In this document: positions 41,143-56,123 of the stretch, piece by piece | Numbering within the stretch: the stretch's first letter is position 1 | How the letters are laid out: each line of letters starts with the position of its first letter | Assembly (NCBI RefSeq): GCF_013307205.1 | Contig: NZ_CP028940.1 | Location: forward strand, 1,595,702-1,659,701 | DNA from: Polynucleobacter arcticus | Lineage (GTDB): Bacteria; Pseudomonadota; Gammaproteobacteria; Burkholderiales; Burkholderiaceae | Direction of reading: 5' to 3' | Length of the DNA: 64,000 nucleotides | Translations under genes and position numbers: made by a program | The notes under the pieces: model-generated | What the model saw: only the letters and a program-made list of their open reading frames with translations | Database searches by the model: none | Told to the model about the DNA's origin: nothing

Positions 41143-41538
41143 CTAGCGTTTCTTAGCCCCCTTGATTTCCGATAGCTCTTGTTCAAGAGCCACCTCTAAT
41201 GCCTTCTCTTGTGCTGGGAGCTGACCTTCTCTCATCAAACCTTCGACAATCTCCATTAGGCGATCTCCATCATCTTCACCAAAGACTTTAGCTACGACCT
41301 CATGACCATACTTGGCGCATAGACGGTCATACTCCTGCTCTGGAGTAATAGTGGTCTTTGATGGGCGCTCGAACACCGTGACGTTCTCGCGCCCAAAGAG
41401 GTTTCGAAGGATATTGGTCTCATATGGCGGTACATGTACATGAATTGTTGTGAAGGCATCCCTACGCACTACCGCTTCCACCTCCTTAATTTGGAAGTCG
41501 CTATGAATAAGCTCTTTGTGATTCATGCTGTTATTCAT
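41143..41538 (-). CDS. phage hypothetical protein downstream of the capsid gene
   Basis: 131 residues, not recognised. The N-terminal half has beta-like segments (FTTIHVHVPPYETNILRNLF) and the C-terminal half is helical and charged (GDRLMEIVEGLMREG, ending KGAKKR). It starts 10 bp after the capsid stop on the same strand, so it is probably co-expressed with the head genes. A head-associated role is possible but not shown. Confidence 0.6.
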   Translation of the reverse strand: MNNSMNHKELIHSDFQIKEVEAVVRRDAFTTIHVHVPPYETNILRNLFGRENVTVFERPSKTTITPEQEYDRLCAKYGHEVVAKVFGEDDGDRLMEIVEGLMREGQLPAQEKALEVALEQELSEIKGAKKR

Positions 41539-41548
41539 TCACCTCTCC

Positions 41549-42595
41549 TTATTGAATGGCTAATACCGCATGGGCATTAGCTCGTGAGATGGATAAAGCA
41601 CAGCGTAAGTTCACCATGGCGTACATAGCGAGCGTATCGTGCGGACGGATTGGGGCAACAATGTCTAGATCATCATCCCGAAGCTTCATAAAGCGGGTAT
41701 TGAGGAAATAGCAGCGCTTACTCCACTCCACTGTTCTATTGGCCATGGCATCGAGCTCATCAAACTGCGGATCCCAGATAATTTCCACCCCTTTGAAGGC
41801 AAGACCAGTATTTACGCCTGCACCTACGCCAGCATCGATGTACTTGGTCTCACCCGATCCAGCGATATGAGTCACTGTGACTTGCTTGCGATAGGTATCA
41901 ATGAACTTACCCCCAGCGATGATGAAATCTGGGCTACCGCCATTTTTAATACATTGACGCCATGCAGTCTCCATCTCACCCACTAAGCTACCTGGCGCTG
42001 TTGAGGCGATATCTTTAACGGCGTAGTTACGCCAGTAGCTTGCTTTAGCTCGATCGATGCCGCCAACTGTACCGGCATCTGGGGCAAGGCTTACTAAGCT
42101 ATCTAAGCCTACTAAGGCATCTGCGCCGTGGGAGCCGTCGCGGTGAAGTTCCAGGTCTAACTTATTGAGAAAGCCTTCTCTAAGCACTTCTAGCTGCTCA
42201 TCCAAGAGATTGATCAGTTGTATGCGCTCGTTGTATTCCAACTGGAAACCTCGCGCCCCGCCCTCACGTACTATGATGCCATTACTAAAGAGTCGGTCAT
42301 AGTCAATATAGAGACCATCAACTGCTCTGCGCCATGGGAATGAAGCTTGCTCAGTCGTATTGCGTTTATTGAACTTGACTGTCTCTTCGCCAAAGGCCCA
42401 GCTAAAGTTACTGCCGTGCTCTTTACGGATGTTCTCGACTACGTTCTGTTTTGCACCTAATAGGCTTTTACGACCTTCCATGAGTTTTTTAAGGAAAGGT
42501 CTCTCTACAGCGATTTGATCGACTGGTAGATTGCGCAAGTACTCGTCTAAGGAAACCTTAGCTAACTCTTGCAAGTCTGTATTTGAAATTGGCAT
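41549..42595 (-). CDS. phage major capsid protein (probable)
   Basis: 348 residues. The call rests on position (after portal and a scaffold-like gene, before lysis genes), on length, and on composition: an N-terminal helical arm, a middle region with RAVDGLYIDYDRLFSNG, and a well-ordered C-terminal beta region with GVEIIWDPQFDELDAM and NTRFMKLRDDDLDIVAPIRP. The family name could not be fixed; the context suggests a podovirus-like coat made without a separate maturation protease, since none is present. GGGGTGG lies before the ATG. Confidence 0.65.
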   Translation of the reverse strand: MPISNTDLQELAKVSLDEYLRNLPVDQIAVERPFLKKLMEGRKSLLGAKQNVVENIRKEHGSNFSWAFGEETVKFNKRNTTEQASFPWRRAVDGLYIDYDRLFSNGIIVREGGARGFQLEYNERIQLINLLDEQLEVLREGFLNKLDLELHRDGSHGADALVGLDSLVSLAPDAGTVGGIDRAKASYWRNYAVKDIASTAPGSLVGEMETAWRQCIKNGGSPDFIIAGGKFIDTYRKQVTVTHIAGSGETKYIDAGVGAGVNTGLAFKGVEIIWDPQFDELDAMANRTVEWSKRCYFLNTRFMKLRDDDLDIVAPIRPHDTLAMYAMVNLRCALSISRANAHAVLAIQ

Positions 42596-42795
42596 ATGCC
42601 ACCCCTATCAATGTGTTTATCTATTCGTGAATTGGTTGCACTCATTCCAATTGATAGAGCGTGAACCTATCCATTGCTACGCTGCTAGTCGCGACTCTAG
42701 CTTTAACGCCGTGGTGTGAAGCACTAAGAGCAATTATTGGGGCGGTAGATGTAGATTTGGGATATTTATGGGGTTTTTGTTGGTATTTCTCAATC
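42596..42795. other. intergenic region between capsid and marR genes
   Basis: About 200 bp separating two divergent genes. It contains a loose inverted repeat (AATTGG ... CCAATT at about 42640-42656). No open frame is supported. It probably marks one edge of the inserted marR/abiE block. Confidence 0.4.
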
Positions 42796-42827
42796 TAGTT
42801 GCATAGCTAATTAATATCGGTTACACT
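42796..42827 (+). promoter_or_regulatory. marR promoter with operator-like box, copy 1
   Basis: The box AGTTGCATAGCTAATT starts at 42797. It contains a -35-like TTGCAT at 42799-42804, and TACACT at 42822-42827 follows after exactly 17 bp as the -10. The same box precedes the next two genes, so binding by the adjacent MarR protein and autoregulation are likely. Confidence 0.7.
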
Positions 42828-42833
42828 AAACCC

Positions 42834-43250
42834 ATGTTTGAACAATGCCTCTATTTCAATACCACCAGCCTAGCTCGCCAGCTAGAGCGGGAGTGGACGA
42901 GTGCATTTAAACCCTTTGGGCTCACCCCTTCTCAGGCTTTCATGCTCAGAGTGGTTTTAGATAAAGCCCCACTACTCCAAAGCGAGTTGGCCAAGGAGAT
43001 GAATATCAGCCGGCCTACCGCTACTAGAGGCCTGGACGGCTTAGAGAGATTGGGGTTAATTAAGCGTGCTTCGTCCGCTAGAGATGGCCGCGAACAAGAG
43101 ATTCATGCGACGCCTAGCTCATTAAAGATTAAGGCAGATCTAAATGCCGCTAGTGCAGCAGTAGGTAAACGCCTCAAAAAATTACTTGGTACACCCCACT
43201 TTGAAGAAGCTGTTGATCAAATCCGAGGTATTAGCTCTGCCTTAAAGTGA
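42834..43250 (+). CDS. MarR family transcriptional regulator
   Basis: 138 residues with a winged helix: LLQSELAKEMNISRPTATRG is the recognition region and SSARDGREQEIHATP the wing. MarR proteins act as dimers and usually release DNA on binding a small ligand. It heads a three-gene plus-strand unit, opposite to all phage genes around it. The repeated box AGTTGYATAGCTAAYT before each of the three genes is the probable operator. Confidence 0.9.
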   Translation: MFEQCLYFNTTSLARQLEREWTSAFKPFGLTPSQAFMLRVVLDKAPLLQSELAKEMNISRPTATRGLDGLERLGLIKRASSARDGREQEIHATPSSLKIKADLNAASAAVGKRLKKLLGTPHFEEAVDQIRGISSALK

Positions 43251-43267
43251 GCTTTTTTATTTCTAAA

Positions 43268-43299
43268 TTAGTTGTATAGCTAACTTATTTTCATATTAC
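43268..43299 (+). promoter_or_regulatory. operator-like box, copy 2, before the DUF2917 gene
   Basis: AGTTGTATAGCTAACT starts at 43270, with arms AGTT and AACT forming a dyad. TTGTAT at 43272-43277 can serve as -35 and TATTAC at 43294-43299 as -10 (16-bp spacing). Confidence 0.65.
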
Positions 43300-43314
43300 G
43301 CTAAAGGAAAAAAG

Positions 43315-43620
43315 ATGAGAATCGAACCAAGCAATACCGTCATCCAAATGAACGAGTCCAATAGGCTCAGTTTTTCAAATGCTAGAAACGTACGCCTTGA
43401 ATGCCTGGATGGAGTTATTTGGCTCACCTTCTCCGACATTGAAGGCGACTTGTTGATTGCAAAGGGCGAGCAAATCATAATCCCCAGCAATGGCCTTACC
43501 GTCATTCAAGGGCTGCCCTTTGCTAGCATCAAGCTTACAAGTCCAACATCAAAAGTTGGCGCCCTATGCAAGTTTTTTAGTTCAATCCAGAACTATTTTT
43601 TAACATTAGTAGTTGTATAG
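43315..43620 (+). CDS. DUF2917-like small protein
   Basis: 101 residues. The pattern LSFSNARNVRLECLDGVIWL, then a Gly-Asp turn (SDIEGDLLIAKGEQIIIPSN) and LTVIQGLPFASIKL, is the compact beta-fold of DUF2917, common in betaproteobacteria and of unknown function. GGAAA lies before the ATG. The last codons and the stop TAG fall inside the third operator box, so the downstream regulatory site overlaps this coding end. Confidence 0.7.
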   Translation: MRIEPSNTVIQMNESNRLSFSNARNVRLECLDGVIWLTFSDIEGDLLIAKGEQIIIPSNGLTVIQGLPFASIKLTSPTSKVGALCKFFSSIQNYFLTLVVV

Positions 43621-43628
43621 CTAATTAC
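43611..43628 (+). promoter_or_regulatory. operator-like box, copy 3, before the tautomerase gene
   Basis: AGTTGTATAGCTAATT at 43611-43626 overlaps the end of the DUF2917 gene, whose stop is 43618-43620. TTGTAT at 43613-43618 could be a -35; the -10 is weak. Confidence 0.6.
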
Positions 43629-43652
43629 TTTTAATTAACCAAGGAGATAGAT

Positions 43653-44042
43653 ATGCCCATCTTGAACGTAAAGGTCAGCGGCCAAAAGAATGCTGTCACC
43701 ACCAAAGCAATACATGAACTACTGTTAGATCTGACTCACCGGATTCTAGGTAAGAAGAAGGAAGTGACTGCCATTGCGATTGACTATGTAGATCCTGAAT
43801 GCTGGATGGTTGGCGGGAAGCTATTGAGCGATCAAAACATGAATAGCTTTTACTTTGATATCAAGATCACCGATGAAACCAATACCAAGAATGAGAAGGC
43901 TACATACATCAAAGAGGCTTTTGAGGGCTTTGCTCGCATCCTAGGCAACCTGCATGAAGAGAGTTATATCTACGTGCAAGATGTAAGAGCTGCCTCTTAT
44001 GGATATGGTGGAAAGACCCAGGAATATCGATACCACCATTAG
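43653..44042 (+). CDS. 4-oxalocrotonate tautomerase family protein
   Basis: 129 residues. After removal of Met the catalytic N-terminal Pro is exposed (MPILNVKVSG). The first half has the beta-alpha-beta tautomerase unit (TKAIHELLLDLTHRILGKKK and VTAIAIDYVDPECWMVGG). It is about twice as long as a single 4-OT subunit, with a second half that may be another such unit (IKEAFEGFARILGNLHEESY). AAGGAGA lies before the ATG. Small-molecule isomerisation or dehalogenation under MarR control is the likely theme; the substrate is unknown. Confidence 0.82.
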   Translation: MPILNVKVSGQKNAVTTKAIHELLLDLTHRILGKKKEVTAIAIDYVDPECWMVGGKLLSDQNMNSFYFDIKITDETNTKNEKATYIKEAFEGFARILGNLHEESYIYVQDVRAASYGYGGKTQEYRYHH

Positions 44043-44068
44043 GCAATCACTAAACCGCACTGGTTTTT

Positions 44069-44169
44069 ATGCCCAATGTGTCATTGCGCCACCTTGGGCA
44101 TAAATAAGCGTTTCTTTGCCTGCGGCCGTCAAGGGTTCGCAAGCCACCCCCTTGGGGTGCCCTTGACGG
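44069..44169. repeat. structured element: two successive hairpins
   Basis: The first has ATGCCCAA (44069-44076) against TTGGGCAT (44094-44101). The second has CCGTCAAGGG (44126-44135) against its perfect complement (44160-44169), and inside it CACCCC (44145-44150) pairs with GGGGTG (44154-44159), leaving a one-sided 9-base bulge. No T-run follows either. It fills the 297-bp gap between the tautomerase and abiE genes; its role is unknown. Confidence 0.55.
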
Positions 44170-44272
44170 AATACGGCCTCGTTTATTAACCATGCATACC
44201 TAGAGGTGTTTCCACCCATTAAAATGGCTTTTAAGTCATGTTTTATATGGATTTAAGTCAGAATCTACTTAC

Positions 44273-44311
44273 ACAAAAATAGGACATTAATGTCTTATTT
44301 TTGTATATAAT
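44273..44311 (+). promoter_or_regulatory. abiE promoter with near-perfect 32-bp palindrome
   Basis: From 44273 to 44304 the arm ACAAAAATAGGACATT is mirrored by AATGTCTTATTTTTGT; only one base pair breaks the symmetry. TATAAT follows at 44306-44311 as -10. Two direct copies of TTTAAGTCA (44230 and 44252) lie upstream. AbiEi antitoxins of the AbiE family are known to repress their own operon, so this is the likely operator. Confidence 0.75.
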
Positions 44312-44339
44312 TAAGGCTTAATCAGGAAAGGAGGCCAAG

Positions 44340-44750
44340 ATGGCTAAAGCAACAACCAAAGACCGCATTTTGGCTAGCCTACGTAATTCCAAAGGCAAGG
44401 TCTTCTTGCGTGATGACTTCAATCGATTTGGCACCTACCGCCAGGTATGCCGTGTCGTGAAAGAGTTATCGGATGAAGGCAAACTAATGCGCCTTGGGTA
44501 TGGCACGTATGTAAAGGCGCGCCCCTCCTCCATCTCTGGCAAACCAGTGGCAGATGAAAGCCTGATCAACATCGGCCTTGAGACCATGAAAAAACTAGGT
44601 ATCAAAGCTGATGTAGGCAAAGATATGCGCGCCCTGATTCAGGGTGATAGCACTCAGGTGCCCATGCTTCCCGTTCTCAATATTGGTAACGCCAGGGTAT
44701 GTCGCAAGCTCTCAGTAGGCAGTCGTAGCCTAGTCTATGAAAAGAATTAA
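44340..44750 (+). CDS. abiEi: AbiEi-type antitoxin (DUF6088 family)
   Basis: 136 residues. The N-terminal winged helix (ILASLRNSKGKVFLRDDFNR, then YRQVCRVVKELSDEGKL, and LGYGTYVKAR) is followed by a C-terminal antitoxin region. In type IV AbiE systems this protein opposes the toxin without binding it directly and represses transcription. AGGAGG lies 6 bp before the ATG, a very strong ribosome binding site. It overlaps the toxin gene by 14 bp. Confidence 0.88.
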   Translation: MAKATTKDRILASLRNSKGKVFLRDDFNRFGTYRQVCRVVKELSDEGKLMRLGYGTYVKARPSSISGKPVADESLINIGLETMKKLGIKADVGKDMRALIQGDSTQVPMLPVLNIGNARVCRKLSVGSRSLVYEKN

Positions 44751-45714
44751 CGACACCCAAAGACTCCAAGTTTTAGATGTCATCAATGAGTTAGAGCTTG
44801 GCATTTCTGAATTCGCCCTTGAAAAAGATTTCATGGTTACTGATGCCCTGGCCGCTATTGCCAACATCGATAACCCAGACTTTGATTTAGTCTTCTGCGG
44901 GGGTACTTGCCTATCCAAGGCTTATGGCCTATTGGAGCGAGTCTCTGAAGATGTGGATATCAAAGCATCACCAAAGACTTCAGGGGCGCTTACTAAGAGC
45001 AAAATTCGCTCTAGCATGAGTAAGCTCAAGGATGATCTTGAGCTAGCGCTCAATGGCGCCGGCTTTAAGTCGGAGTTCATCTCAAGGGATGCTCAAGATA
45101 ACAATAACTTTATTGAGTTTGATATCCAGTATTCCACCCACTTTGAAGTAAGCCCCGGGATGCGCGCGAACCTCAAGCTTGAAGTGAGCTATAGCCCATT
45201 GCGCGCGCCCAAACAAGATAAGGCAATTACCCTCTTGTTTGATTCATTGGCAGGCATGGATACTGGTCCTAGCTTTAGGGTGCCATGCGTAGATTTAAGC
45301 GAAGCATTAGCGGAAAAACTCATTACCTTCCCAAGACGCTTAGCTCTATCGATGGCAAAAGATAATGAGAGGCTTGATACCGCATTGGTACGTCACCTCT
45401 ACGACGTTTATCAGATCATCCAAAAGAATCCATCCATCTTGAACGATCAACAAGGCAATCTGTCAAACCTAGTAAATCAAGTCATTCAGAAGGATGCAGA
45501 AGACTTTGCAAGTCAACATAGCGCCTTTCTAACCGACCCGCTTAGTGAAATTCATAAAGCGATGGAGCACGCTAAGTCTGATGCGAAGACTAAAGATACC
45601 TATGATCAATTCATTAGGGTGATGGTCTATGACAAGAACGCACCCTCTTTTGAAGATGCGTTCTCTGCGTTCTATCGAACTCTTAAGCTAGCCCTACCAA
45701 ATCTCTCTCGCTAA
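44737..45714 (+). CDS. abiEii: AbiEii-type nucleotidyltransferase toxin
   Basis: 325 residues, DNA polymerase beta-like nucleotidyltransferase fold. The motif FCGGTCLSKAYGLLERVSED with VDIK after it provides the GGT...K and DxD-type metal residues. LSEALAEKLITFPRRLA and LVRHLYDVYQI are conserved in the family. Known relatives block growth by modifying tRNA acceptor ends or act in abortive phage infection. The overlapping antitoxin frame ensures coupled translation. The gene ends only 4 bp from the convergent phage scaffold-like gene, so the module fits tightly between phage genes. Confidence 0.9.
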   Translation: MKRINDTQRLQVLDVINELELGISEFALEKDFMVTDALAAIANIDNPDFDLVFCGGTCLSKAYGLLERVSEDVDIKASPKTSGALTKSKIRSSMSKLKDDLELALNGAGFKSEFISRDAQDNNNFIEFDIQYSTHFEVSPGMRANLKLEVSYSPLRAPKQDKAITLLFDSLAGMDTGPSFRVPCVDLSEALAEKLITFPRRLALSMAKDNERLDTALVRHLYDVYQIIQKNPSILNDQQGNLSNLVNQVIQKDAEDFASQHSAFLTDPLSEIHKAMEHAKSDAKTKDTYDQFIRVMVYDKNAPSFEDAFSAFYRTLKLALPNLSR

Positions 45715-45718
45715 AATG

Positions 45719-47116
45719 CTAAATACCCATATTGCCTAGGTGCTGGGCAATACGATCCATCGGTTGTTCAGAGCTAGCCACTGGTGCACCTAGAGTTGCT
45801 GTTCGCGCTCGTATAGGTTGAGGTCGATGTTCAGGCTTCTCTTTATATTGCGTAATCTTGACCTTAGACCAATCCGGTGGAGGCATCTCTATGGAGTTGT
45901 AAATGGAGTCAATAGTTGCCCACCACCGAGAGATCTCATTGTTCTGAACAAACATATTCATATAGAACGGATCTTGTATGTATTTCACAAACAATGCAGA
46001 TTTAAAGCTGTGATCAACTTCATCCTCCCTGGTAGATAGGTAATTAAGTATTTCTTGCTTAGCTTCATTCACAACATTAAACAGGTCGGGCTTGAGATGT
46101 CGTTCTAGCAAATTCTTCGCCGGAGCCTGTCGCTTAGCGCGCTCTTGTGTGTCGAGGATGCTACCCACCAGCTCACCTTCAACCTGATAGCCGTGCACTT
46201 CATCCAATAGCTTCTCGACTTTAGCTTTAAGAATTTGGTTTTCTTTTGCAAGATCTCGGTTGGTATTGATGATCTTCTGAAATCGATTCTCACTGCGAGC
46301 TGATTGTGGCACTTGCTCCTGTTCTTCAGGTGCTTGTTCAGCGCCCGTTAGGATGCGGTCAATAAGCTCTTTGCCACTTTCTACCTGCACCTCTGGCTGT
46401 GGAGCAGGTTCTACGTTTAGAACTACAGGGGCTGGCATTAGCTCGCTCATGTCATAGGCTGCTGGCAACCCTGTCTTAGCATCTACGCTTGCATCCATAG
46501 CAGGTATTGATGCTGGTACATGAACCGCCCCCTTCACTATTTGCAATACCGGCTCCTCGGTCTCTAACTCCCCCAACCCTTCTGAATCCTCAGGCTCTTT
46601 AGCCACCGCTACCGGCTTTGGAGCTTCTGCCTTAGGTGCATCCGGGACTTTGCTTAGATCATCCAATAGCGCTGCAGCTTGGGTCTGCTTTTGGTTTTGA
46701 CGATCAAGCTCTTGCTGCTTTGCCAATAGCGCAGTAACTTCAGTGGCAGCTTGTTTGGTAGCTTCCTTCTCTTTGTTTTCTGCAAGCCTTCTATCTAGGT
46801 CTTGTTGCCTCACTAAACGAGCGGCCTCCTTAGCTGCAACGACCTTTAGCCTTTCCTCTTCATCGCGGGCTGATTTTTCCGCGGCCTTGCGCTGCTTTTC
46901 TTCTTCGGCAGCTTGTCTTGCTTTTGATTGTTCAGCTAATTCAATAGCGCGATCTTCCCTGGCTTTATTGCGTCTTGCGGCTGATTCGGCAGCATGCTTT
47001 TCATATGCTTCCTTTTCTAGGCGCTCACGCTCTCGCTTGGCTTCACGGTCTTGTACTCGTTGAATCGCACCACCATTGCTCAATACTCCAGAACTAAAGT
47101 TTTTCACTTCTTGCAT
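45719..47116 (-). CDS. phage scaffold-like coiled-coil protein
   Basis: 465 residues from the ATG at 47116, which has AGAGGAGA just upstream; the open frame continues 16 codons further into the portal gene but lacks a ribosome binding site. The first 150 residues are almost pure charged coiled coil (Lys, Glu, Arg, Ala). A Pro- and Glu-rich middle follows, then a second coiled coil near residue 300 (RDLAKENQILKAKVEKLLDE) and a compact C-terminus. Position between portal and major capsid matches the portal-scaffold-coat order of podoviruses. Scaffold function is inferred from this, not from homology. Confidence 0.6.
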   Translation of the reverse strand: MQEVKNFSSGVLSNGGAIQRVQDREAKRERERLEKEAYEKHAAESAARRNKAREDRAIELAEQSKARQAAEEEKQRKAAEKSARDEEERLKVVAAKEAARLVRQQDLDRRLAENKEKEATKQAATEVTALLAKQQELDRQNQKQTQAAALLDDLSKVPDAPKAEAPKPVAVAKEPEDSEGLGELETEEPVLQIVKGAVHVPASIPAMDASVDAKTGLPAAYDMSELMPAPVVLNVEPAPQPEVQVESGKELIDRILTGAEQAPEEQEQVPQSARSENRFQKIINTNRDLAKENQILKAKVEKLLDEVHGYQVEGELVGSILDTQERAKRQAPAKNLLERHLKPDLFNVVNEAKQEILNYLSTREDEVDHSFKSALFVKYIQDPFYMNMFVQNNEISRWWATIDSIYNSIEMPPPDWSKVKITQYKEKPEHRPQPIRARTATLGAPVASSEQPMDRIAQHLGNMGI

Positions 47117-49040
47117 CTGCTGTCTCCTCTTTTGATTGTTGTTCTGTACTGCGCTTGTCTCCACCCATTTGCCACATCTGATTCATCGAAAGATCGCTAT
47201 TGATATCTACGTATCCATCAGCTTGTTTTTCTACATTCGGTATAAATAGATTTGAATCGATACGATCGTCATATCGCAAGAGAGTCTCCTGTAGGAGATT
47301 ACGGATATACTCGTAGTCCATTCCTCTTGCTTGCAGGTTTTGTATCTGAATTGATAGATTCGTAATCATGGGTAAAACCTTGAGCCAGCTCTCTTTATCT
47401 TCTATGCCATCTGGTGCGCCGGTAGTGCCTGCCCGAATGCACAAGTCCACCATGTCAAAGATTCGATCTTTGGTAAGTTCTGGCCAGTCGTAGGTTTTCT
47501 CGATGGTCATGACTAGTTCGCCATTGATCATGGTGGTCTTGGTGCTAGGTGGGCCCATATAGCGCTCTACTTGCTCTTTAGTAAGTTCTTGTAAGAGTAC
47601 CTGGGCGCTGTATTGCGCTATCTCTTGCAGCCAATCCTCTATCTGGTCTTTGAATTCGAATACGCGCCCTGATAAGGCTCTTTGCAAGATGTTGGCTTCG
47701 GTTGCTGTCTTGGGTCGCACTACTGTGGAACGCGCTGCATCTTGCAGTCCGGTAACTTGCTCCCAGTCATAACGTACTGCACTGGTGTCATAGACGATGG
47801 GATCGATCTTTGGGTGACCTCTGGGAATAATCACTTGATTCAGAGGCTTGCCTTCAGTATCGACTATCGTGATCTCACCAAAGCGTGAGTCTGAATGTTT
47901 CTTAATGGTCTTTTCGTTGATATCGGCTGATGCTACCCACCCCGGAATGCAGAGGTCGCGGTGTTGATTAAATCGATCACGCGCTTCGTTGTGTTCATCC
48001 TGCAATCGCTCAGTCAGATCAACTAGGCTTGGGCCTATGAATTGACCATCGACTACTTGATAAGGCAATAAGAAGAATGGGTACCAGCGCTCTCCGGCTC
48101 TTGGTGGGGAGTAAGGTTCGCGTAGCCATTCAGTCGCGCCTTCCACCATCGTATAAACACGCTGGGTAGCTCTATCCCAGATCTCTAGTACCGCTATCTG
48201 CTGATCATCTATGACTGAGCTTGAACCAGCATTCATCTGCATTGAGGCTAGGCGCTTGGCTTTCTTGTGGGATGGCTCGCCTTGGCCGGGTTGGTAGATC
48301 TTCGCATTTGCTAGATTCTTTTTGTAGAGTGCTTCAGCCTGGCCGCGCTTCATTGGGATGATTTGACAGATCCAGTCCGCATCGGTGTAGTCCCAGAACT
48401 CGCAGATGGATGGATCAATAAGGAGATTTTCTGTAAGAACCCTATCGATTACTAGACCTTCAGCCGATTGCACTTCTGATTGTTCTTGAAGTGACTTGAT
48501 GAGCTCTTCTAATTCCGCCCTCTTGGCATCATGATGATGCCGATCATCGCCCTGAAGATCTCGAACCAAGTCTTCTATGGCTAGAAGGTTTTCTTGTGCA
48601 TCGTTGATGCGACCCTGGATATAAGAATCCTTGCTTGGGTCTCTTTGGTACATCACTTTCAGAATTCCGAGGCTGCAGGTCAGTGCTGCCCTTACTGTCG
48701 ACTTAGCTCTATTCTTAAGCTGAGCGTGCTCTAGCGCTCTATTGGTGACTTTCTCCAGCGTTTTACAGAAAAGCTTAATGCCCGCGCCCGAGTGGGTGGG
48801 TGTTGTCGATATTTCTGGATTGCGTGCATACACGTTAGGTAGCACTGCGGAGATAGTCCCGTGTATGAGGTTGGCTCTTAGGCTATAGAAGTCTTTGCCA
48901 GTAGGATCAGCATTCCAATTAAAGCCAGCTACGGTATTGCGGTTATGTCTTACGCGTTTATGGAATGTTGCCCAGTGAGCACGCGCATGCGTGATGCGGG
49001 CGGTCCATTTTTGTTGAAGAGCTTTGGGGTCTTGGGGCAC
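47094..49040 (-). CDS. phage portal protein
   Basis: 648 residues. Portal character is seen in the N-terminal helical region (LQQKWTARITHARAHWATFH), the stem and wing segments around GIVKVMYQ-like LGILKVMYQRDPS and WDYTDADWICQIIPMKRGQA, and the conserved LPYQVVDGQFIGPSLVDL and ARDRFNQHRDL. A later GLQDAARSTVVRPKTATEAN is typical of portals of P22- and podovirus-like phages. It forms the dodecameric DNA entry ring of the head. In an uninterrupted phage it should follow terL directly; here two foreign genes lie between. Confidence 0.85.
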   Translation of the reverse strand: MPQDPKALQQKWTARITHARAHWATFHKRVRHNRNTVAGFNWNADPTGKDFYSLRANLIHGTISAVLPNVYARNPEISTTPTHSGAGIKLFCKTLEKVTNRALEHAQLKNRAKSTVRAALTCSLGILKVMYQRDPSKDSYIQGRINDAQENLLAIEDLVRDLQGDDRHHHDAKRAELEELIKSLQEQSEVQSAEGLVIDRVLTENLLIDPSICEFWDYTDADWICQIIPMKRGQAEALYKKNLANAKIYQPGQGEPSHKKAKRLASMQMNAGSSSVIDDQQIAVLEIWDRATQRVYTMVEGATEWLREPYSPPRAGERWYPFFLLPYQVVDGQFIGPSLVDLTERLQDEHNEARDRFNQHRDLCIPGWVASADINEKTIKKHSDSRFGEITIVDTEGKPLNQVIIPRGHPKIDPIVYDTSAVRYDWEQVTGLQDAARSTVVRPKTATEANILQRALSGRVFEFKDQIEDWLQEIAQYSAQVLLQELTKEQVERYMGPPSTKTTMINGELVMTIEKTYDWPELTKDRIFDMVDLCIRAGTTGAPDGIEDKESWLKVLPMITNLSIQIQNLQARGMDYEYIRNLLQETLLRYDDRIDSNLFIPNVEKQADGYVDINSDLSMNQMWQMGGDKRSTEQQSKEETADARSEKL

Positions 49041-49123
49041 TCCTCATTTATAAAATGCAGTCAAGCGTCTCGAGGATATTTTTTGAATAAATTCTTAAAT
49101 GGTGTGACATCGGGCGGAGACCC

Positions 49124-49135
49124 TTAATCCATTGG
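49124..49135 (+). repeat. 12-bp direct repeat TTAATCCATTGG, left copy
   Basis: Identical to 52364-52375. The stop codon of the GIY-YIG-type gene lies within it. It marks the left edge of the two-gene cassette inserted between portal and terL. Confidence 0.65.
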
Positions 49136-50011
49136 AAGCAAATTAACCCTGCCATCCTCGAAAGCAATCTCCTCAGCTAAAACGTAAATCAATGAGCGCA
49201 TAGCCTCTTCGGCATCAGCTAACTCGATTTTTATTGGCTCGCGATTATGGGGCAATGACTTGCCCAATAATTCCCAAATAAGGGATTCGGCTAAAGCCAA
49301 TTCCTCAACGTTTCTATACCGATGAATCTCCCACTCACCCCAAGGATAGTCTTTTGATATTTGATTTAAGTAGCCACGTTTAACGCCTATGCTGATATAA
49401 ACAGGCTTATCAGGATGGGTTAATAGGCAAATAGTGCCTGCATTAGCAATCTCCATCATCCCTTCTGGAGTTCTTGCGCCCATACCGCACTCGGGGCAGC
49501 CCTCCCCCTCCATAACCAACTTAGGTCGGGTACGCCACTGATGGCCATTGCTACATTGAAAATCATTTCTACCGCTGATGATACTTTTGACATACCCCAA
49601 AAGAGTAATGCCGCGCCCCACTAAACGTTTTTTTACCGAAACGTTATAAGCAGTTTCATAAGCTGGAATAGCTGATGACATCGGTCGAATTCCGGCGTCT
49701 TTAGCTGCAGTAAGTCCAACACAAACCTCTTCCCAAGACATTATTTCTACCTCAACGCCGCCTCTGAAGGGAATGGCCGATTGAGGAATTTGACTCCAGA
49801 ATGCTTTTTCAGCCCAATATGGATCTTCTACAGGGTAAAACTCTTTTAATTGCCAATCTTGTCCTGTTTCTTTAACAATACGTCCAGCAGCTTTTGTGAA
49901 ATCGCTATTGTGCTGAGCCATTCGAACTAAAGGTTGACGTATCGTCACCCCTATTTTGTAGAGACTTTGATCCGATGGATGCGTTAGTACGTAGATGTAG
50001 CCGGGCTTCAT
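49124..50011 (-). CDS. T5orf172/GIY-YIG-type nuclease-like protein with zinc ribbon
   Basis: 295 residues. The N-terminus GYIYVLTHPSDQSLYKIGVT has the two-strand pattern of T5orf172 (MUG113), a GIY-YIG nuclease relative, with a supporting region LKEFYPVEDPYWAEKAFW. Residues about 165-190 contain CSNGHQW and CPEC, a zinc ribbon. A second, weaker GIY-like unit follows (AGTICLLTHPDKPVYISIGV). It begins 12 bp after the ATPase gene and forms an operon with it. It would supply DNA or RNA cleavage to the pair; this is inferred. Confidence 0.72.
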   Translation of the reverse strand: MKPGYIYVLTHPSDQSLYKIGVTIRQPLVRMAQHNSDFTKAAGRIVKETGQDWQLKEFYPVEDPYWAEKAFWSQIPQSAIPFRGGVEVEIMSWEEVCVGLTAAKDAGIRPMSSAIPAYETAYNVSVKKRLVGRGITLLGYVKSIISGRNDFQCSNGHQWRTRPKLVMEGEGCPECGMGARTPEGMMEIANAGTICLLTHPDKPVYISIGVKRGYLNQISKDYPWGEWEIHRYRNVEELALAESLIWELLGKSLPHNREPIKIELADAEEAMRSLIYVLAEEIAFEDGRVNLLPMD

Positions 50012-50023
50012 GAAAAATTATTT

Positions 50024-52192
50024 CTACCGTAATTTAAGCACCGCTTTATATAAACCCTTCAAATGATCGGCGCCCATATCTAATATAGGCTCATACATAA
50101 ATGAATTTAAATGTATGTTTTCAGGGGTCATAAGGTTTACTTTTTCCAAGAGCTCTAGAGTATTGTGACTATCTTGAAATTTACCCTTATAAGCATTGAA
50201 AAGTTCGTAAGTCTGCATTCCGGTAATTTCATCTACAAATTTGTCATCCTTTATTGCCGAAATCATAAACTCTTCAGCCTTCAATCTAATTCCCATAGAT
50301 AAAATTATCTTGCCATCTAACTCAGCAGTCTCATTGGGGTCTGATAAAACAACATCGCAAGTTTCATAAATTAAATCAATCACCTTAATTTCGTGGTGTG
50401 GCAAAGAAATTGATGGATCATTTAATACCAGTTGATAAATTGACTCAAGTCTTTCTATGGTTATTCTTTTCGACTTAGGTCTTATGTGCAATAGCGCAGT
50501 TAGATCATCAGACTCTGAAGGCCTATTGCAATACTCAGCTAAATTTCTTACAAATGGTATCGCTGCAATTAAAAACTTGGCATTATCAAAGTGCTCCTTC
50601 CAGTAAGCAAAGGGATCTTTCTGATAGAGCTCCTCGCGTAAGGCAAGATTGCGATTGCTTTTAACTGCAAATAGCTTTTTGTGCCTAGGTATTCCAAGCC
50701 TACTGCTAATTGTTCTATGAAAGTCAAAGTTATGCGTAAGAAATATGCAATTGAAATCGCCTTGGCGACTTAATTCGCGAAGATATTCAATGATCGCGTA
50801 TTTATTTTTGTAATCAAACGAATCTGCAATATCATCAGCTACCACTAAAGTTTTGAGGCCTATATTTTTTCTCGCATTTAATTCGAAAAGAATATTAAGG
50901 ATATATAAGGCTCGCTTCTCTCCTTGACTAAGAACCTGTATAAGTAAGCTTTGATCAATTTCAGTTACATCTTCACTGTCTTTAAATTTGAAGGCAACTT
51001 GTGGGGATGTTCCTTTTAAAATTACATCCTCTTGGTTAACAACCGCCAATTCAAATGGGACGGTAAATCTACTATTGAATTGCTCCACCACAGCCTCCCA
51101 CAAAGTCCGCTCAGATTTGGCAGCCTCAATAGATTTTCGAATTACTTCTTTTGCCTGCTTGTACTGGTCAATAAATTCTTTAGCAATTACTTTATGCTCG
51201 CGCAAGTACTCGAGCCAAATCTTTCTCTGAAACTCGGAATAATCAGCCAACTCCGAAACAATATCCTTATTTTCCAATAGGTAATCTCGAAATTCGCGCA
51301 ATTCCTTTGTTGTGAGTTTTTTATCTATTTCATTGAATTTCTTATTTAGATCATCATTTGAGAAGATTTTCTTTTTTTCTTCATCAATCTTTTCCGCTAA
51401 TTCATCGGCAGTCTTAACCTCTTGCTTAACGCCTGCATTATTAAGATTAATTGAATGGCTGGCGCTAAAAAATCCGTTTTCCAGTAGATTTTTTTGCACA
51501 GTAGTTGCATGGTAGTAATTAAAAGTTTTTGAAAGAATCGGAGACTCTGCAACTAATTCATTATATTTTTCAATGTATTCGTTTAGCTGTCTTTTAATAG
51601 CGCCTGAATCTAAAAATCCCATTGTTTTATCATTAAAGAGATTGGCATACTTGAGTGCCGCAAATCTCTCATTCGCTACATCATCCAACCGCTCCTCAAG
51701 AGATTCGAGACAATCAAAAAGTGAATGGGCACCAAAGCATCTTACTAACTCACCTTCTGATGTTATATTTCGACCCGTTAAACCGGATGCCTCCTTCAAA
51801 ATCTTTAATAATTCAATCTTTTTAGACTCAATACTATCCAGCGCTTGGTCGTAACCTTTTTTTATTTCTGCATTCACCAGAAGAAGGGATGCCTTACTAG
51901 ACACAAAGTTTTGCTCGTAAGGTTGAATGACAAAGACAGATTCACCACTTAAATCAGCTCCATCTTGATCCTTAATATCCCTTACTGACACCCTATCTTT
52001 GTTGATTTGATCGCCTGAAGCAGATCCATTTATAAGGTCAATAAAAGACTTAGCCAAGGATGTCTTCATGAATCCGTTGGGTGCGTAAACTGAATACACC
52101 TTCGAGTCGTCAAATCTAAAGACATGATTAAGACTACCTATTCCGTAGCAGTTCTCAATTTTTACAGTTACTTTTTTCAATGAAATACCCAC
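50024..52192 (-). CDS. ABC-type ATPase with coiled coil (AAA_13/PrrC-RloC-like)
   Basis: 722 residues, GTG start. A variant Walker A, YAPNGFMKTS (36-45), keeps the Lys but has Met where the last Gly normally stands. A helical coiled-coil stretch (about 110-370) is followed by the ABC signature LSQGEKRALY (421-430), Walker B LVVADDIADSFD (449-460) and the H-loop LTHNFDF (485-491). The layout is that of the SMC-like defence ATPases in which the anticodon nucleases PrrC and RloC are found. The C-terminal 220 residues are not recognised and no nuclease triad is certain. Base composition is visibly more A+T-rich than in the flanking phage genes. Anti-phage function is inferred from family and context. 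Confidence 0.8.
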   Translation of the reverse strand: MGISLKKVTVKIENCYGIGSLNHVFRFDDSKVYSVYAPNGFMKTSLAKSFIDLINGSASGDQINKDRVSVRDIKDQDGADLSGESVFVIQPYEQNFVSSKASLLLVNAEIKKGYDQALDSIESKKIELLKILKEASGLTGRNITSEGELVRCFGAHSLFDCLESLEERLDDVANERFAALKYANLFNDKTMGFLDSGAIKRQLNEYIEKYNELVAESPILSKTFNYYHATTVQKNLLENGFFSASHSINLNNAGVKQEVKTADELAEKIDEEKKKIFSNDDLNKKFNEIDKKLTTKELREFRDYLLENKDIVSELADYSEFQRKIWLEYLREHKVIAKEFIDQYKQAKEVIRKSIEAAKSERTLWEAVVEQFNSRFTVPFELAVVNQEDVILKGTSPQVAFKFKDSEDVTEIDQSLLIQVLSQGEKRALYILNILFELNARKNIGLKTLVVADDIADSFDYKNKYAIIEYLRELSRQGDFNCIFLTHNFDFHRTISSRLGIPRHKKLFAVKSNRNLALREELYQKDPFAYWKEHFDNAKFLIAAIPFVRNLAEYCNRPSESDDLTALLHIRPKSKRITIERLESIYQLVLNDPSISLPHHEIKVIDLIYETCDVVLSDPNETAELDGKIILSMGIRLKAEEFMISAIKDDKFVDEITGMQTYELFNAYKGKFQDSHNTLELLEKVNLMTPENIHLNSFMYEPILDMGADHLKGLYKAVLKLR

Positions 52193-52353
52193 TTTAATTT
52201 TCTATCTTCCATCGTAACTATAGGAGGACGCTTACGCCAGCAATTCTTAGGCCTTAGTTAATGCTCTAAGTAAATGGCCATTAATATTCATTCAATCGCA
52301 CACTCATTTTTTTATCCTCTAGACCATTGATTTATATAGGCTTTTAAATTGCC

Positions 52354-52406
52354 GTGACTTTTTTTAATCCATTGGTCGCGCGTTCGAATCCCGCCCGATC
52401 GAACCA
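52354..52406 (+). pseudogene. tRNA-Lys-like 3' half
   Basis: From the anticodon loop onward the sequence follows tRNA-Lys: ACTTTTTTTAATCCATTGG, then TCGCGCGTTCGAATC of the variable loop and T-arm, ending ACCA at 52403-52406. The known E. coli tRNA-Lys reads ACTTTTAATCAATTGGTCGC at the same place. There are extra T bases in the anticodon loop, the T-stem is imperfect, and no 5' half lies upstream. It is a remnant, most likely an integration site left by recombination. Confidence 0.7.
52364..52375 (+). repeat. 12-bp direct repeat TTAATCCATTGG, right copy
   Basis: Part of the anticodon stem-loop of the tRNA-Lys-like remnant and identical to 49124-49135 at the other edge of the ATPase/GIY-YIG cassette. 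Position suggests the crossover core of the insertion. Confidence 0.65.
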
Positions 52407-52451
52407 ATATAAATATCGTCACCTTAGCCTTTCTGAGCCTTGGAAATCCTG

Positions 52452-53786
52452 TTAGCCCCTCGATGCATAGAGTGAATCATTTTCAGGCATTCGTCTGGCC
52501 CTCATTACCCCATACCTAGTTGCATCCCAAGCATGATCTTCTGCATCGGTATCTACATCTTCAGGGTTTAATGAATCTGGAGGTAGTTGAGGGATAGTTC
52601 TTAACCAATGTTTACATGTTGAGAAGACTTTGAGTCTGTTTTCAGCCAGAAGCCGGATGATTTCTTGAGCGCCATTCAATCTGCTTCTGGGAGCGTTATA
52701 GGCCTCCGTCCATTTCACGCCTTTATCCCTGAAGATTTGTCCGATGGATCGCTCCGCTCCAATCTTCGAAAAGATGGATGGATCAGCTAGGTTCATGCGG
52801 TATTCATAACCAAGGCGTTGGTCGTGTGTTTCGATTTTCTTGATCTTGTCTGCGACTACGGTTGCATCTTCTCTTGTGCCCGTGTTTTCTTTATCGCCAT
52901 ATCCATAGAGTTCTCTCCATAGGTAATAGACTCCATCATTTGATAAGGCAAACCAATACACGGCATAAGGTCTGGCATATCCCCAATCCATAGATCGCCA
53001 TACCTTCCATGTTGGCGGAATGGCAAAGGGTTCTACAACGTGTTTAGAGGGCTGCCATACGCCTTCCAAGAAACTTCCCACATGGATATCCCAATCACCC
53101 TCTAGCCATGCTCTACGCCTGTTTGGATCGCTTAGCGACTCTAGGCTCATGAGGTAGTTGGGATCGTTTCTGAGGAGATGGGTATTCTCATAGATAGTCG
53201 AGTGAATTCTCACTTTGGGTAACGCCCCCTCTTGCCTAATGATCTGTCCAGCTGGAATACTGCCAATCTGAAATCTTTCCTTTACGGACGCATGCCCTAC
53301 TCCAAATGGATTGCATGTTGCCCTCACCATCCTTGGCATTCCGGGATGCGATGACCTGCAGGTGGAATGCATGGCTTCATAGAAAGAGAGGTTGCGCCAG
53401 TTGGTGAGCTCTTCAAACCCTAACCAGGGATACTCGTGACCGTGATAGTTCCAGTAGTCATCCTCGTTTGCTCCATAACGGAAGTACAGCATCTCCCCGG
53501 TTGGCCACTTCCAGACATAGTCTGATTCATTAAACTTGGCGCCTGGGAAGATTTGATAGAACCAGCGCTTACTCTTGGCTACTACGTCAGCCAACTGGGG
53601 ATAAGTTAGGCGAAAGAGTGTTCCGCGCCAATGATCGCCAAACCCCCTACCTACATGTTGGGCATAGCTCATGAGCAAGGTATCTGTCTTACCCCCTCCC
53701 CTGGTTCCCTCCAGCAATACCTCATAAACAGGGCATGTCAGAAACAAAGTCTGACTGCCGGGCAATGGGGCCCAGATGGTTTTCAT
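52452..53786 (-). CDS. phage terminase large subunit
   Basis: 444 residues. The packaging ATPase domain has a P-loop in EGTRGGGKTDTLLMSY and Walker B with the catalytic Glu in YPWLGFEELTN. The RNase H-like nuclease domain begins at WRSMDWGYARPYAVYWF and ends with DAEDHAWDATRYGVMRAR, containing the metal-binding Asp residues. It cuts and pumps DNA into heads with TerS and the portal. TerS lies directly upstream with 3 bp between. Confidence 0.93.
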   Translation of the reverse strand: MKTIWAPLPGSQTLFLTCPVYEVLLEGTRGGGKTDTLLMSYAQHVGRGFGDHWRGTLFRLTYPQLADVVAKSKRWFYQIFPGAKFNESDYVWKWPTGEMLYFRYGANEDDYWNYHGHEYPWLGFEELTNWRNLSFYEAMHSTCRSSHPGMPRMVRATCNPFGVGHASVKERFQIGSIPAGQIIRQEGALPKVRIHSTIYENTHLLRNDPNYLMSLESLSDPNRRRAWLEGDWDIHVGSFLEGVWQPSKHVVEPFAIPPTWKVWRSMDWGYARPYAVYWFALSNDGVYYLWRELYGYGDKENTGTREDATVVADKIKKIETHDQRLGYEYRMNLADPSIFSKIGAERSIGQIFRDKGVKWTEAYNAPRSRLNGAQEIIRLLAENRLKVFSTCKHWLRTIPQLPPDSLNPEDVDTDAEDHAWDATRYGVMRARRMPENDSLYASRG

Positions 53787-53789
53787 GGA

Positions 53790-54194
53790 CTAGTGTTTTG
53801 CTTGGGCGGCTTGCTCCCAATCATCTATGCTCATAGCGCTTGGTACGACCAGAACTCCACTTTGTAGAGGTGCGCCATCTTTGCCCGTATGCTCAATGGC
53901 TGATAAGCGTGGATGTACGTAAGGTGCAGCGTGCCTTCCTACGGTAGCAGCCATGTTCAGAAGCTTAATACGAGCTTCATTTGCTAACGTCTTGTCACCA
54001 AGCTCCTCTTTTTTAACATTGCTAGCTTCTTCGTATAGCTGGTGCATCACCTTCATCATGACCTCTAGGGGTGTGATCCCCTGAGTAGCAAGAGCCTCAG
54101 CAATCTGGCGGGTGCGCTTAGTTAGGCTCCCAGTCTTGCGACCAGCCCCCAGTCTTTTTCCACCTTTTGATTTCTTTTGATTGTTTTCAATCAT
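53790..54194 (-). CDS. phage terminase small subunit-like protein
   Basis: 134 residues. A basic N-terminus (KKSKGGKRLGAGRKTGSLTK) resembles DNA-binding tails of TerS proteins, followed by a helical core (TRQIAEALATQGITPLEVMM, LGDKTLANEARIKLLNMAAT). Position immediately before terL supports the call. It would recognise the packaging site. It overlaps the next upstream gene by 4 bp. Confidence 0.75.
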   Translation of the reverse strand: MIENNQKKSKGGKRLGAGRKTGSLTKRTRQIAEALATQGITPLEVMMKVMHQLYEEASNVKKEELGDKTLANEARIKLLNMAATVGRHAAPYVHPRLSAIEHTGKDGAPLQSGVLVVPSAMSIDDWEQAAQAKH

Positions 54195-54433
54195 GAGGTG
54201 ACAGTTGTTACTTTGATGAGCTTTAAAAGATGGGGTTGCAATGCGACTGAATCACCAATGGGCTCATCAAACTCAATAATGATTCGTTGGAATAAGTCAT
54301 GACGGCTTTGGGCTCCACGATGTTTGACCACGGTACCTACGCGCCCACTCGGGGTCTTCACTTTTGATCCAATAGGAAAGTCTTCCATGTCTAGACGATC
54401 AATGACGCCTGCAATGGTTGGATTAGTTTGCAT
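54191..54433 (-). CDS. small KOW-like phage protein
   Basis: 80 residues from the ATG at 54433. Its core FPIGSKVKTPSGRVGTVVKH resembles a KOW or SH3-like beta barrel. Function unknown. The start overlaps the end of the DUF1376 gene by 11 bp and the end overlaps terS by 4 bp, so it is part of a translationally coupled series. An earlier ATG at 54484 exists, but the coupled start is more likely. Confidence 0.6.
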   Translation of the reverse strand: MQTNPTIAGVIDRLDMEDFPIGSKVKTPSGRVGTVVKHRGAQSRHDLFQRIIIEFDEPIGDSVALQPHLLKLIKVTTVTS

Positions 54434-55364
54434 TGGGTTTCTCCGTGGTTTCTGCGCGCTCTTTTCGCTTGTGTAGTTCTGCAAAGATCCTTGTTTTGAA
54501 GGTCTCGTAACTTTCTGCCCCCTCGGCTCTCATGCCTAGCTCCCTGCCTTTGGCGTCTATGCCTTCATTGGTTTTCCACCAGGTATCTTCGTCTGCGCTA
54601 GCGGCTTCTGCCTTCTTGCGCGCTCCTTTGAGTATTGCCAAGACATAGCCTGCATTGATCGGGGTTGGGTTTGAGACTTTCATGCGCGTTTCCTTTGCTG
54701 TGGCGATAGCCTCTGCCACCTCAGCATCCGTTACCCCGAGATTGACGATGTCCCGTATGCGGTAGTCATCTACGGCTGTAGCTCTGCCCTCCTTGCTGAT
54801 CATGGCTGCAAAGCTTTTATATTTTTCGATGCGCTCCTGAAAAATCTTTTCATCATCGGCAAGCGTGGGTGGTCCTTGGGAAATTTTTTCCTTTTCACCC
54901 CCATTGTTTTGTTTGTCTGGTGTATGGAGATTGGTTACTGGTGACTGGTGTTTGGTGTCTGGTGAGCATTGCGTTCGCAATGCGATCGCATTGCGAACGC
55001 ATCCATTATTGGGAGTGATTTGGGGTTGTGATTCGTTTGTCGGAAATGATTGCCACCTGCCTTCTGCACTCCGCCTGGCTTTGAGTTGCTTATCTTTAAA
55101 GCGGGCTATCTCATGATCACAGCGCTCTTGTCTCCAGCCATCCTCAGTCAGGGTAAAAAATTCATTGAGGATTGAGACCACTGCATTTTTTTCTTCTTTG
55201 CTTCTTGCATAGATCAATCTTTGCACGAGCTTTACATCGATCGGTAGCGGCTTTTCTGTAGCGTAGTACTTTCTGATGAGGCGACTGTAAGTTGCATCTT
55301 CTATGAATGTCAGATGCGCGGTTGCTTCTGCGTAATCTCCAATGTGGTGCTCGTAGTAATTCAT
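54423..55364 (-). CDS. DUF1376 replication-type phage protein
   Basis: 313 residues. The N-terminal DUF1376 domain (YdaU-like) is clear: NYYEHHIGDYAEATAHLTFI, then EDATYSRLIRKYYATEKPLP and FFTLTEDGWRQERCDHEI. A low-complexity linker (residues about 110-155) precedes a C-terminal helical part with ADEDTWWKTNEGIDAKGREL. Such proteins sit with replication genes of lambdoid phages and satellites and often carry winged-helix, primosome-like domains. The linker DNA contains seven 7-bp repeats and a 32-bp palindrome, a probable origin. No helicase loader or helicase gene is nearby. Confidence 0.8.
   Translation of the reverse strand: MNYYEHHIGDYAEATAHLTFIEDATYSRLIRKYYATEKPLPIDVKLVQRLIYARSKEEKNAVVSILNEFFTLTEDGWRQERCDHEIARFKDKQLKARRSAEGRWQSFPTNESQPQITPNNGCVRNAIALRTQCSPDTKHQSPVTNLHTPDKQNNGGEKEKISQGPPTLADDEKIFQERIEKYKSFAAMISKEGRATAVDDYRIRDIVNLGVTDAEVAEAIATAKETRMKVSNPTPINAGYVLAILKGARKKAEAASADEDTWWKTNEGIDAKGRELGMRAEGAESYETFKTRIFAELHKRKERAETTEKPNAN
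54914..54962. repeat. seven tandem 7-bp repeats (iteron-like) inside the DUF1376 gene
   Basis: The trinucleotide TGG recurs at exact 7-bp spacing at 54918, 54925, 54932, 54939, 54946, 54953 and 54960. Most units read TGWYTGG (TGTCTGG, TGTATGG, TTACTGG, TGACTGG, TGTTTGG, TGTCTGG; one AGATTGG). A 7-bp period is out of step with codons, so the repeat is kept as DNA and not for the protein. Confidence 0.8.
54970..55001. repeat. perfect 32-bp palindrome inside the DUF1376 gene
   Basis: The arm TGCGTTCGCAATGCGA is followed without gap by its exact complement; the centre is GCGATCGC. The octamer GCATTGCG also occurs at 54966 and 54989, in the same orientation. It begins 7 bp after the tandem repeats. 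Together they look like a replication origin; a regulatory site is the alternative. Confidence 0.85.
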
Positions 55365-55795
55365 CTAAATTTATCTCCGTGTAGTTCTTTTTTCTTGCGT
55401 GCAATATGTTTTGCAAGAGATGAATCTAACAATCGAAGAGCGTATCGTCAAACGCGTTTTTTCTGAATTTTTCTTTAATTTATTTATCTAACAAATGTCT
55501 GTAATCCTTCTTTGAAAAATTCGTAGGAATTTATTTTAGAGTTTAAAGTATTGATTGATCTATGCATGTCCACTACTCTCTTTACGCTATCAGAATTTAC
55601 TGACAGGTCTGTAGCCATTTATTTATATTGCTTGTGTCACTTCTATGAATAAATATTTTTTTGTAGTCAAAAATGAATATGCGTCTTCAAAGTGGGTATT
55701 GACATTTGATTGACCAACAAAATTTCATTGACTACATTGCACTTTAGCAGCACACAGATTGATTCATAACAAAACACAATAGGAGATTAAGTTAA
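55365..55795. other. A+T-rich control region between the replication and alpA genes
   Basis: 431 bp with no supported gene. It should hold the divergent early promoters of the element. Three copies of ATTGAC lie at its right end (55698, 55709, 55727). No CI-like repressor gene is present here. Confidence 0.5.
55698..55738 (+). promoter_or_regulatory. promoter candidates before the small ORF and alpA
   Basis: TTGACC at 55710-55715 and TACATT at 55733-55738 are separated by 17 bp. Two more TTGAC hexamers flank it (55699 and 55728), so the ATTGAC repeats may be a regulator binding site instead of, or as well as, -35 elements. Confidence 0.5.
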
Positions 55796-55906
55796 ATGGT
55801 GGCATTTCGTTTGTATAGCTTGTATCGATCTTATGGATACACAAAAATGAGTTCTGCAAAGATGGCGTTGCAGGTTTATCGTAAAAACTTAAAGCGCGCC
55901 CGCTAA
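55796..55906 (+). CDS. 36-residue basic peptide upstream of alpA
   Basis: ATG at 55796 with AGGAG 10 bp upstream; stop at 55904-55906. The product starts MVAFRLYSLYRSYGY and ends KNLKRAR, rich in Arg, Lys and Tyr. The alpA start lies 10 bp after its stop, so it could be a leader peptide coupled to alpA or a small DNA-binding protein. No homologue is recognised. Confidence 0.5.
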   Translation: MVAFRLYSLYRSYGYTKMSSAKMALQVYRKNLKRAR

Positions 55907-55916
55907 GGAAATGATC

Positions 55917-56123
55917 ATGAATGACATCACATCTAGAGATATGAACGTGACCTTAATGCGAATTCCTCAAATTCTGAAAATGATGCCGATTTCTAAATCC
56001 AAGTTTTGGCTCATGGTACAGAAAGGTGAATTTCCCAAGCCAATCAAGATTGGTCGATCATCTTTCTGGACAATTGAGCAGGTTCAGGCATTTATTCGGG
56101 AAAAGAGCACTCAATCCCCCTGA
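55917..56123 (+). CDS. AlpA-family regulator / excisionase-like protein
   Basis: 68 residues from the ATG at 55917, chosen over 55911 because AAGGA then sits 7 bp upstream. It is a MerR-like single winged helix: MRIPQILKMMPISKSKFWLM and GEFPKPIKIGRSSFWTIEQV are the AlpA pattern. AlpA proteins activate integrase or excision genes in P4-like islands and control Gram-negative satellite induction. It marks the far end of the phage-like backbone. Confidence 0.85.
   Translation: MNDITSRDMNVTLMRIPQILKMMPISKSKFWLMVQKGEFPKPIKIGRSSFWTIEQVQAFIREKSTQSP

Follow-up and report, generated by a model that had tools for sequence, protein, structure and literature searches.

A repeat element kept as DNA inside a DUF1376 gene of Polynucleobacter, a probable replication origin

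Origins of replication located inside the gene of an initiator protein are a known kind. Among Gram-positive phages, the replisome-organizer genes gene 38 of SPP1 and rep of TP901-1 contain an internal origin. In lambdoid phages, the origin lies midway within gene O and combines iterons with an AT-rich tract, and the origins of Stx phages have two extra iterons that make their O proteins 13 residues longer, according to the available part of one account (PMC7466680); the available part of another gives four 19-bp iterons for lambda (PMC3985674). We analyzed a stretch of 64,000 nucleotides of the Polynucleobacter arcticus genome (contig NZ_CP028940.1, positions 1,595,702 to 1,659,701), referred to here as the window. 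An element of approximately 105 bp (54899–55003) lies within linker codons of a DUF1376 gene in a prophage or satellite. Judging from sequence comparison, this element is probably where replication of the prophage or satellite begins, embedded in the linker of its own initiator gene.

The locus shares several properties with the lambda and Stx phages. As far as the cited accounts extend, each has, midway in a known or putative initiator gene, tandem repeats that are themselves inverted repeats and adjoin an AT-rich tract, and in each a change of repeat number lengthens the protein, by 13 residues in Stx O and by 14 in one homologue of the window gene (L078, which carries 42 bp extra). The repeats are under DNA-level selection inside a putative initiator gene (codons 122–154), a location like that in lambda, and genes for P-like loaders lie downstream in some carriers of the element. 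Unlike the inverted-repeat iterons of 18–19 bp given in these accounts, the units in the window are boxes spaced by 11 bp and heptamers of 7 bp. The window protein matches DUF1376 only and falls outside the lambda O family, and in Polynucleobacter the gene is followed by terminase genes instead of P. SPP1 gene 38 and TP901-1 rep are comparable in that each encodes a DNA-binding initiator, one that aids helicase loading, and contains the origin repeats; the protein families and repeats are different.

On the forward strand, seven heptamers ending in TGG follow one another without gaps (54914–54962), and a 7-bp spacer (54963–54969) separates them from a perfect 32-bp palindrome (54970–55001) with the center GCGATCGC. 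These coordinates confirm those of the first-pass annotation, an initial reading of the letters that had described the locus as iterons plus a palindrome, the usual layout of initiator-bound origins. The gene lies on the complementary strand. Three boxes of the form TGCG-NN-CGCA, repeated every 11 bp, make up the palindrome, namely box 1 (54992–55001), box 2 (54981–54990), and box 3 (54970–54979). The heptamers read CCANNNN on the gene strand, mostly with a CACCA core, and are followed by an A-rich tract (54885–54913), conserved to approximately 54899, which is a candidate unwinding region.

At the base composition of the window, perfect palindromes of 32 bp are expected approximately 1.6e-5 times per 64 kb by chance, and the next longest palindrome in the window measures 20 bp. 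The window strand of the palindrome, folded from the window sequence alone, is predicted to form a strong hairpin (z −5.3). The 2.09-Mb genome contains a single copy even when up to three mismatches are allowed. Three copies of TGCGWWCGCA and four matches to TGGTNNYTGGTNNYTGG with at most one mismatch were found in the window, all within the element; at least three and at least four, respectively, were found in 0 of 100 shuffles. The exact 30-mer core was present in only two further genome records, both from Polynucleobacter, and in two viral contigs. A dispersed repeat of the cyanobacterial type, recalling HIP1 and heptanucleotide repeats, was ruled out, as the palindrome and heptamers are not scattered in the genome. 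Genome-wide, one other site of the longer heptamer pattern exists, near 1,294,351, within a second DUF1376 gene. This gene (G000:C1:1293881-1294795, L043) is 60% identical to the first and has heptamers of its own, and therefore the two elements may compete or recombine.

Homologues were collected from 186 Polynucleobacter genomes, 29 of which had a match, and from viral contigs, of which the best 80 of 130 relatives were taken. The codon comparison was performed with 64 distinct genes (tblastn identity of at least 62%, 285–320 amino acids). Among same-residue comparisons, synonymous differences were 4.7% in codons 122–154 vs. 39.8% in the remainder of the gene, and amino-acid differences were 0.211 vs. 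0.262. In codons 121–132, the synonymous value was 0.008 and the amino-acid value 0.342; the repeats persist while the linker amino acids drift, the outcome that the first-pass annotation had named as the check on its idea. The box arms TGCG and CGCA are near-invariant across the three different codon phases that result from the 11-bp spacing. One arm base of box 3 is an exception: 42 of the 64 genes have G there, and another 21 have C, so that their box reads TGCC-NN-CGCA. The variable positions are the central two bases of boxes 1 and 2 (AC, AA, AT, or CC in box 2) and the single bases linking the boxes, and the resulting replacements are V/D/E/N, T/N/I, and R/P. Codons required by the boxes are nearly fixed: Ala126 is encoded by GCG in 62 genes and Ala128 by GCA in all 64.

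Synonymous positions hardly vary although the encoded residues do, and selection therefore acts on the DNA. The codon comparison demonstrates this, and the corresponding suggestion of the first-pass annotation is borne out (0.047 vs. 0.398). Its argument that a 7-bp period cannot stem from amino-acid repeats is not strict, because three heptamers equal seven codons; it is the codon tests that establish selection on the DNA. Gene conversion could lower synonymous change, but it is insufficient as an explanation because the arms are kept while the centers vary. The same data bear on the possibility that the element has no function as DNA, slippage having multiplied the tandem repeats in a linker free of constraint, or recombination having swapped codons. 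The linker is indeed predicted to be disordered and the number of units varies (42 bp extra in L078, 34 units in L262). However, the frozen synonymous sites and the kept arms contradict this explanation, as does the recurrence of the motif in DUF1376 genes in different codon phases, and we consider it the least credible of the alternatives.

The perfect 32-bp palindrome is not the functional unit, as it is intact in only 4 of the 64 distinct homologues; it arises in these few because the box centers match there by chance. Three exact boxes were found in 42 genes, two in 16, and one in 6. In 60 genes, seven heptamer cores (CCA) follow one another at intervals of exactly 7 bp. The layout that persists is three TGCG-NN-CGCA boxes, NNCACCA heptamers, and the A-rich tract, in this order.

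We scanned IMG/VR contigs for GCNNNGCNCACCA followed by three NNCACCA units and obtained 99 stretches, of which 98 places were read. Of these, 95 were within an open reading frame (ORF) that matched the DUF1376-domain profile (E < 1e-5), supporting the tie to the DUF1376 gene, and the motif occupied the three codon phases 51, 43, and 1 times in these ORFs. The other three places were the remainder of a truncated DUF1376 gene (L125), an unrelated tandem repeat (L205), and a sequence matched as a DUF1376 relative with a wider profile (L201). In eight distant loci (L112–L114, L116–L119, and L123), the protein was 54–66% identical to the window protein in a local match ending near residue 114–166, and the DNA element was also present; the C-terminal halves differ in these loci, since the protein match stops there. 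An exact array in 7-bp phase with at least three cores occurred once per sequence, within the DUF1376 gene, in the 64-kb window, in the complete records of phages P19250A, phiAC-1, and BA3, and in the record of Vibrio phage 1.052.A, which is marked partial.

The genes downstream were compared among 89 representatives; 47 remained after removal of 24 that had no array and 18 in which a DUF1376 ORF or a downstream ORF was not usable. The downstream protein was defined as the longest ORF near the stop codon, and some of these may not be genes. P-like helicase loaders accounted for six of the 47 (L107, L166, L164, L230, L280, and one not singled out), with Pfam lambda P (PF06992) matched by L107 (E 1e-10) and L166 (E 2e-10). 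DnaC-like loaders accounted for three (L253 of Vibrio phage 1.052.A, L259, and L263), DnaB-like helicases for three (L245 of Xanthomonas phage Rb1, L252 of Pseudomonas phage phPA-G, and L278), and additional DNA primases for two (L234 and L257). Helicases, loaders, or primases together thus make up at least 14 of the 47 in non-overlapping sets, the overlap of families having been checked by individual rescan of 20 of the 47 proteins. The annotated gene order of phPA-G is CI, CII, DUF1376, and DNA primase/helicase. Many of the remaining downstream proteins belong to families of unknown function or have no match.

These neighbors are relevant to whether the element is a pac site, that is, a packaging start read by a small terminase encoded just downstream. 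Short repeats are known from phage pac sites located close to terminase genes, and in Polynucleobacter the DUF1376 gene precedes a gene in the small-terminase position (53790–54194, complementary strand) and then a large terminase gene (52452–53786, complementary strand; phrog_2, E 8e-35). The small-terminase label of the former gene is weak (E 0.0095), and its better match is phrog_15261, a family of unknown function (E 6e-15). Outside the Polynucleobacter group, helicase, loader, and primase neighbors are frequent, whereas a small-terminase match was found for 1 and phrog_15261 for 4 of the 47 downstream proteins. The terminase is approximately 7 kb from the DUF1376 gene in phiAC-1 and approximately 22 kb from it on the record of Vibrio phage 1.052.A. 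A conserved association with a small-terminase gene was therefore not found in the 47 downstream proteins or in the two named phages. The single 7-bp array per record, its location inside DUF1376, and the replication-gene neighbors favor an origin over a pac site, which we regard as very unlikely.

The family was also sampled without reference to the motif. Three overlapping draws with the Pfam profile covered 398, 399, and 370 genomes (by phylum, order, and class), of which 29, 29, and 11 had a match; a further nine loci, from named phages, were added on the basis of protein similarity. Of the 73 loci, 65 were usable (six had no profile match and two were too short or masked), including the window gene (L244), two other Polynucleobacter genes (L218 and L219), and the nine named-phage loci. 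At least three ACCA/CCCA cores at 6–8-bp spacing after the domain were found in 31 of the 65 DUF1376 genes vs. 4 of 207 control frames, which were open frames of 200–450 codons from the same loci and are not proven genes. Without the twelve named-phage and Polynucleobacter rows, the array was counted in 20 of 53. In a second test, based on the best 7-bp lag against synonymous shuffles, 24 of 65 genes reached p ≤ 0.01. The cores vary, the repeats reading AGAACCA in Thalassomonas phage BA3 and ATACCCA in Vibrio phage 1.052.A; a few genes (L248 and L220) have a 6-bp period in place of 7, and unit number reaches 34 in L262.

The gene strand after the array was A-rich in 27 of 30 array genes (L262, with its 34 units, was left out of the 31), and A+T exceeded the gene level in 26 of 30. 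The mean A excess was 0.118 vs. 0.007 ± 0.017 at random positions, a value that may partly reflect further, imperfect ACCA units past the counted chain, which counts against an origin.

Other results also weigh against an origin. Only 14 of the 31 array genes exceeded synonymous shuffles at p ≤ 0.01. Cumulative GC skew, which the first-pass annotation had named as a check, gave no support for an origin. No helicase loader was recognized adjoining the DUF1376 gene in the window, where the terminase comes next. A winged-helix fold for DUF1376 is suggested, short of established. The E. coli Rac prophage gene ydaU belongs to the DUF1376 family, is followed by ydaV (a putative ATP-binding protein), and has spaced linker repeats (a 14-bp family with spacings of 33, 33, and 12) and an A-rich stretch, but the ACCA/CCCA array is absent from it, so that it does not offer a ready-made version of the array for laboratory work. 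A chain of three ACCA/CCCA cores was undetected in 34 of the 65 sampled DUF1376 genes, and for this reason we infer, and do not assert, that the element is an origin. Comparison with relatives establishes the linkage to DUF1376, the order of boxes, heptamers, and A-rich sequence, and the presence of replication-gene neighbors. The lambda-O-like setting proposed in the first-pass annotation is thus supported by location, A-rich tract, and loaders in relatives, and the origin role itself, with binding, melting, and helicase loading, is what we infer from it.

In several genes (L220, L248, L252, L261, and L278), a C-run, a TAA-like spacer, and a second C-run are located behind the array, and the same arrangement is found in E. 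coli Rac ydaU (L292, approximately 3633–3657). In some of these genes, a G-run capable of forming a hairpin follows the C-runs. This stretch is possibly a further part of the origin.

Ahead of the array, some genes have TGCG-NN-CGCA boxes and other genes have AACG-NN-CGTT boxes. On a tree of the N-terminal domains, which was built from few columns and left 21 of 87 inner branches open, the box-type labels were clustered, with 4 changes vs. a shuffled mean of 6.6; values as low were obtained in 5 of 500 shuffles for TGCG and 1 of 500 for AACG. The sister domains of L249 and L257 differ in box type, a further point to be counted against our interpretation, and the idea that the N-terminal domain dictates box type holds only in part. 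Such boxes raise the possibility of an operator or timing site, at which the DUF1376 protein or another phage regulator would bind within the gene and control transcription rather than replication. Palindromic boxes with a 2-bp center are typical of dimeric regulators, and the box sequence evolves faster than the heptamers. However, an origin fits better with the placement of the site within the initiator gene, with the heptamers and the A-rich tract, and with the helicase and loader neighbors, and no further TGCGWWCGCA copy occurs within the window. We consider an operator unlikely.

The DUF1376 gene (54423–55364, complementary strand) encodes 313 amino acids and is a putative replication initiator gene. 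The protein matched PF07120 (98.4 bits, E 3e-28; curated cut-off 30.1), which was its sole Pfam match at E ≤ 0.001; the lambda O family was not matched. It also matched PHROG families, of which four bear the name primosomal protein. The N-terminal DUF1376 domain (codons 1–98; 55071–55364, complementary strand) is the part common to carriers of the element, and block means of the predicted local distance difference test (pLDDT) for residues 21–100 were mostly approximately 90 in the predicted structure. The helical C-terminal domain of the structure model (codons 169–313; 54426–54860, complementary strand) is a candidate for recruiting the helicase.

If the element is an origin, the N-terminal domain would bind the array, most likely at the 7-bp ACCA/CACCA heptamers, which are the likeliest binding site because they are common to most carriers. 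The palindromic boxes at 11-bp spacing would form a second, faster-changing site, and a factor bound to them may help or compete with the assembly of DUF1376 on the heptamers. The adjacent A-rich tract would then open, and the replicative helicase would be recruited via the C-terminal domain or, in other phages, via a partner resembling P or DnaC.

More tentatively, with chances that we place slightly below even, DUF1376 genes of many Pseudomonadota phages and satellites may contain an undescribed class of intragenic origin. It would consist of interchangeable boxes at 11-bp spacing, an ACCA array in 7-bp phase on which DUF1376 protomers would form a filament (with three units for every two helical turns), and an A-rich tract for unwinding. 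This module would be readable in any codon phase and would accompany the N-terminal domain even where the C-terminal domain and the helicase loader are swapped.

In the open-access literature, to which our search extended (subscription journals and preprints were outside its scope), we found no description of an array in a DUF1376 gene, no paper joining DUF1376 with "origin of replication", and nothing relevant on YdaU in prophage replication, heptamer-repeat phage origins, or iterons with a primosomal protein. PMC5795418 names the DUF1376 domain without assigning it a role in the part available. What appears new is the family, the repeat design in two parts, and its spread. DUF1376 (YdaU) is listed in Pfam as a domain of unknown function and would gain an initiator role if our interpretation is correct; the origin would then be recognizable by sequence alone in many phages, prophages, and satellites. 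The element shows how a DNA signal can be retained inside a protein code across reading frames, with a disordered linker bearing the cost, and the assembly of an initiator in 7-bp phase becomes directly testable.

The carrier region (36154–56123) adjoins a transfer-messenger RNA (tmRNA) gene (36154–36512). Its genes matched integrase, holin, endolysin, major head protein, portal, large terminase, and AlpA, and no match to tail genes was found among the proteins scanned. The carrier looks like a capsid-forming phage satellite, as judged from this gene content. A reverse transcriptase gene matching the candidate defense group RT_UG19 (37935–39995, E 5.5e-184) is located beside the integrase gene. 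Defense-type genes surround the phage genes (44340–45714, 50024–52192, and 56245–63906) and include AbiEi/AbiEii, PDC-S46, a Type I restriction-modification set, SIR2-like, and PDC-S31 genes. The cargo between the portal and large terminase genes differs between loci. In L012 (4193–9589), hydrolase, transporter, and adenylation-type genes were read from translations only, and the window (49124–52192) has an endonuclease-like gene and the PDC-S46 gene at this position.
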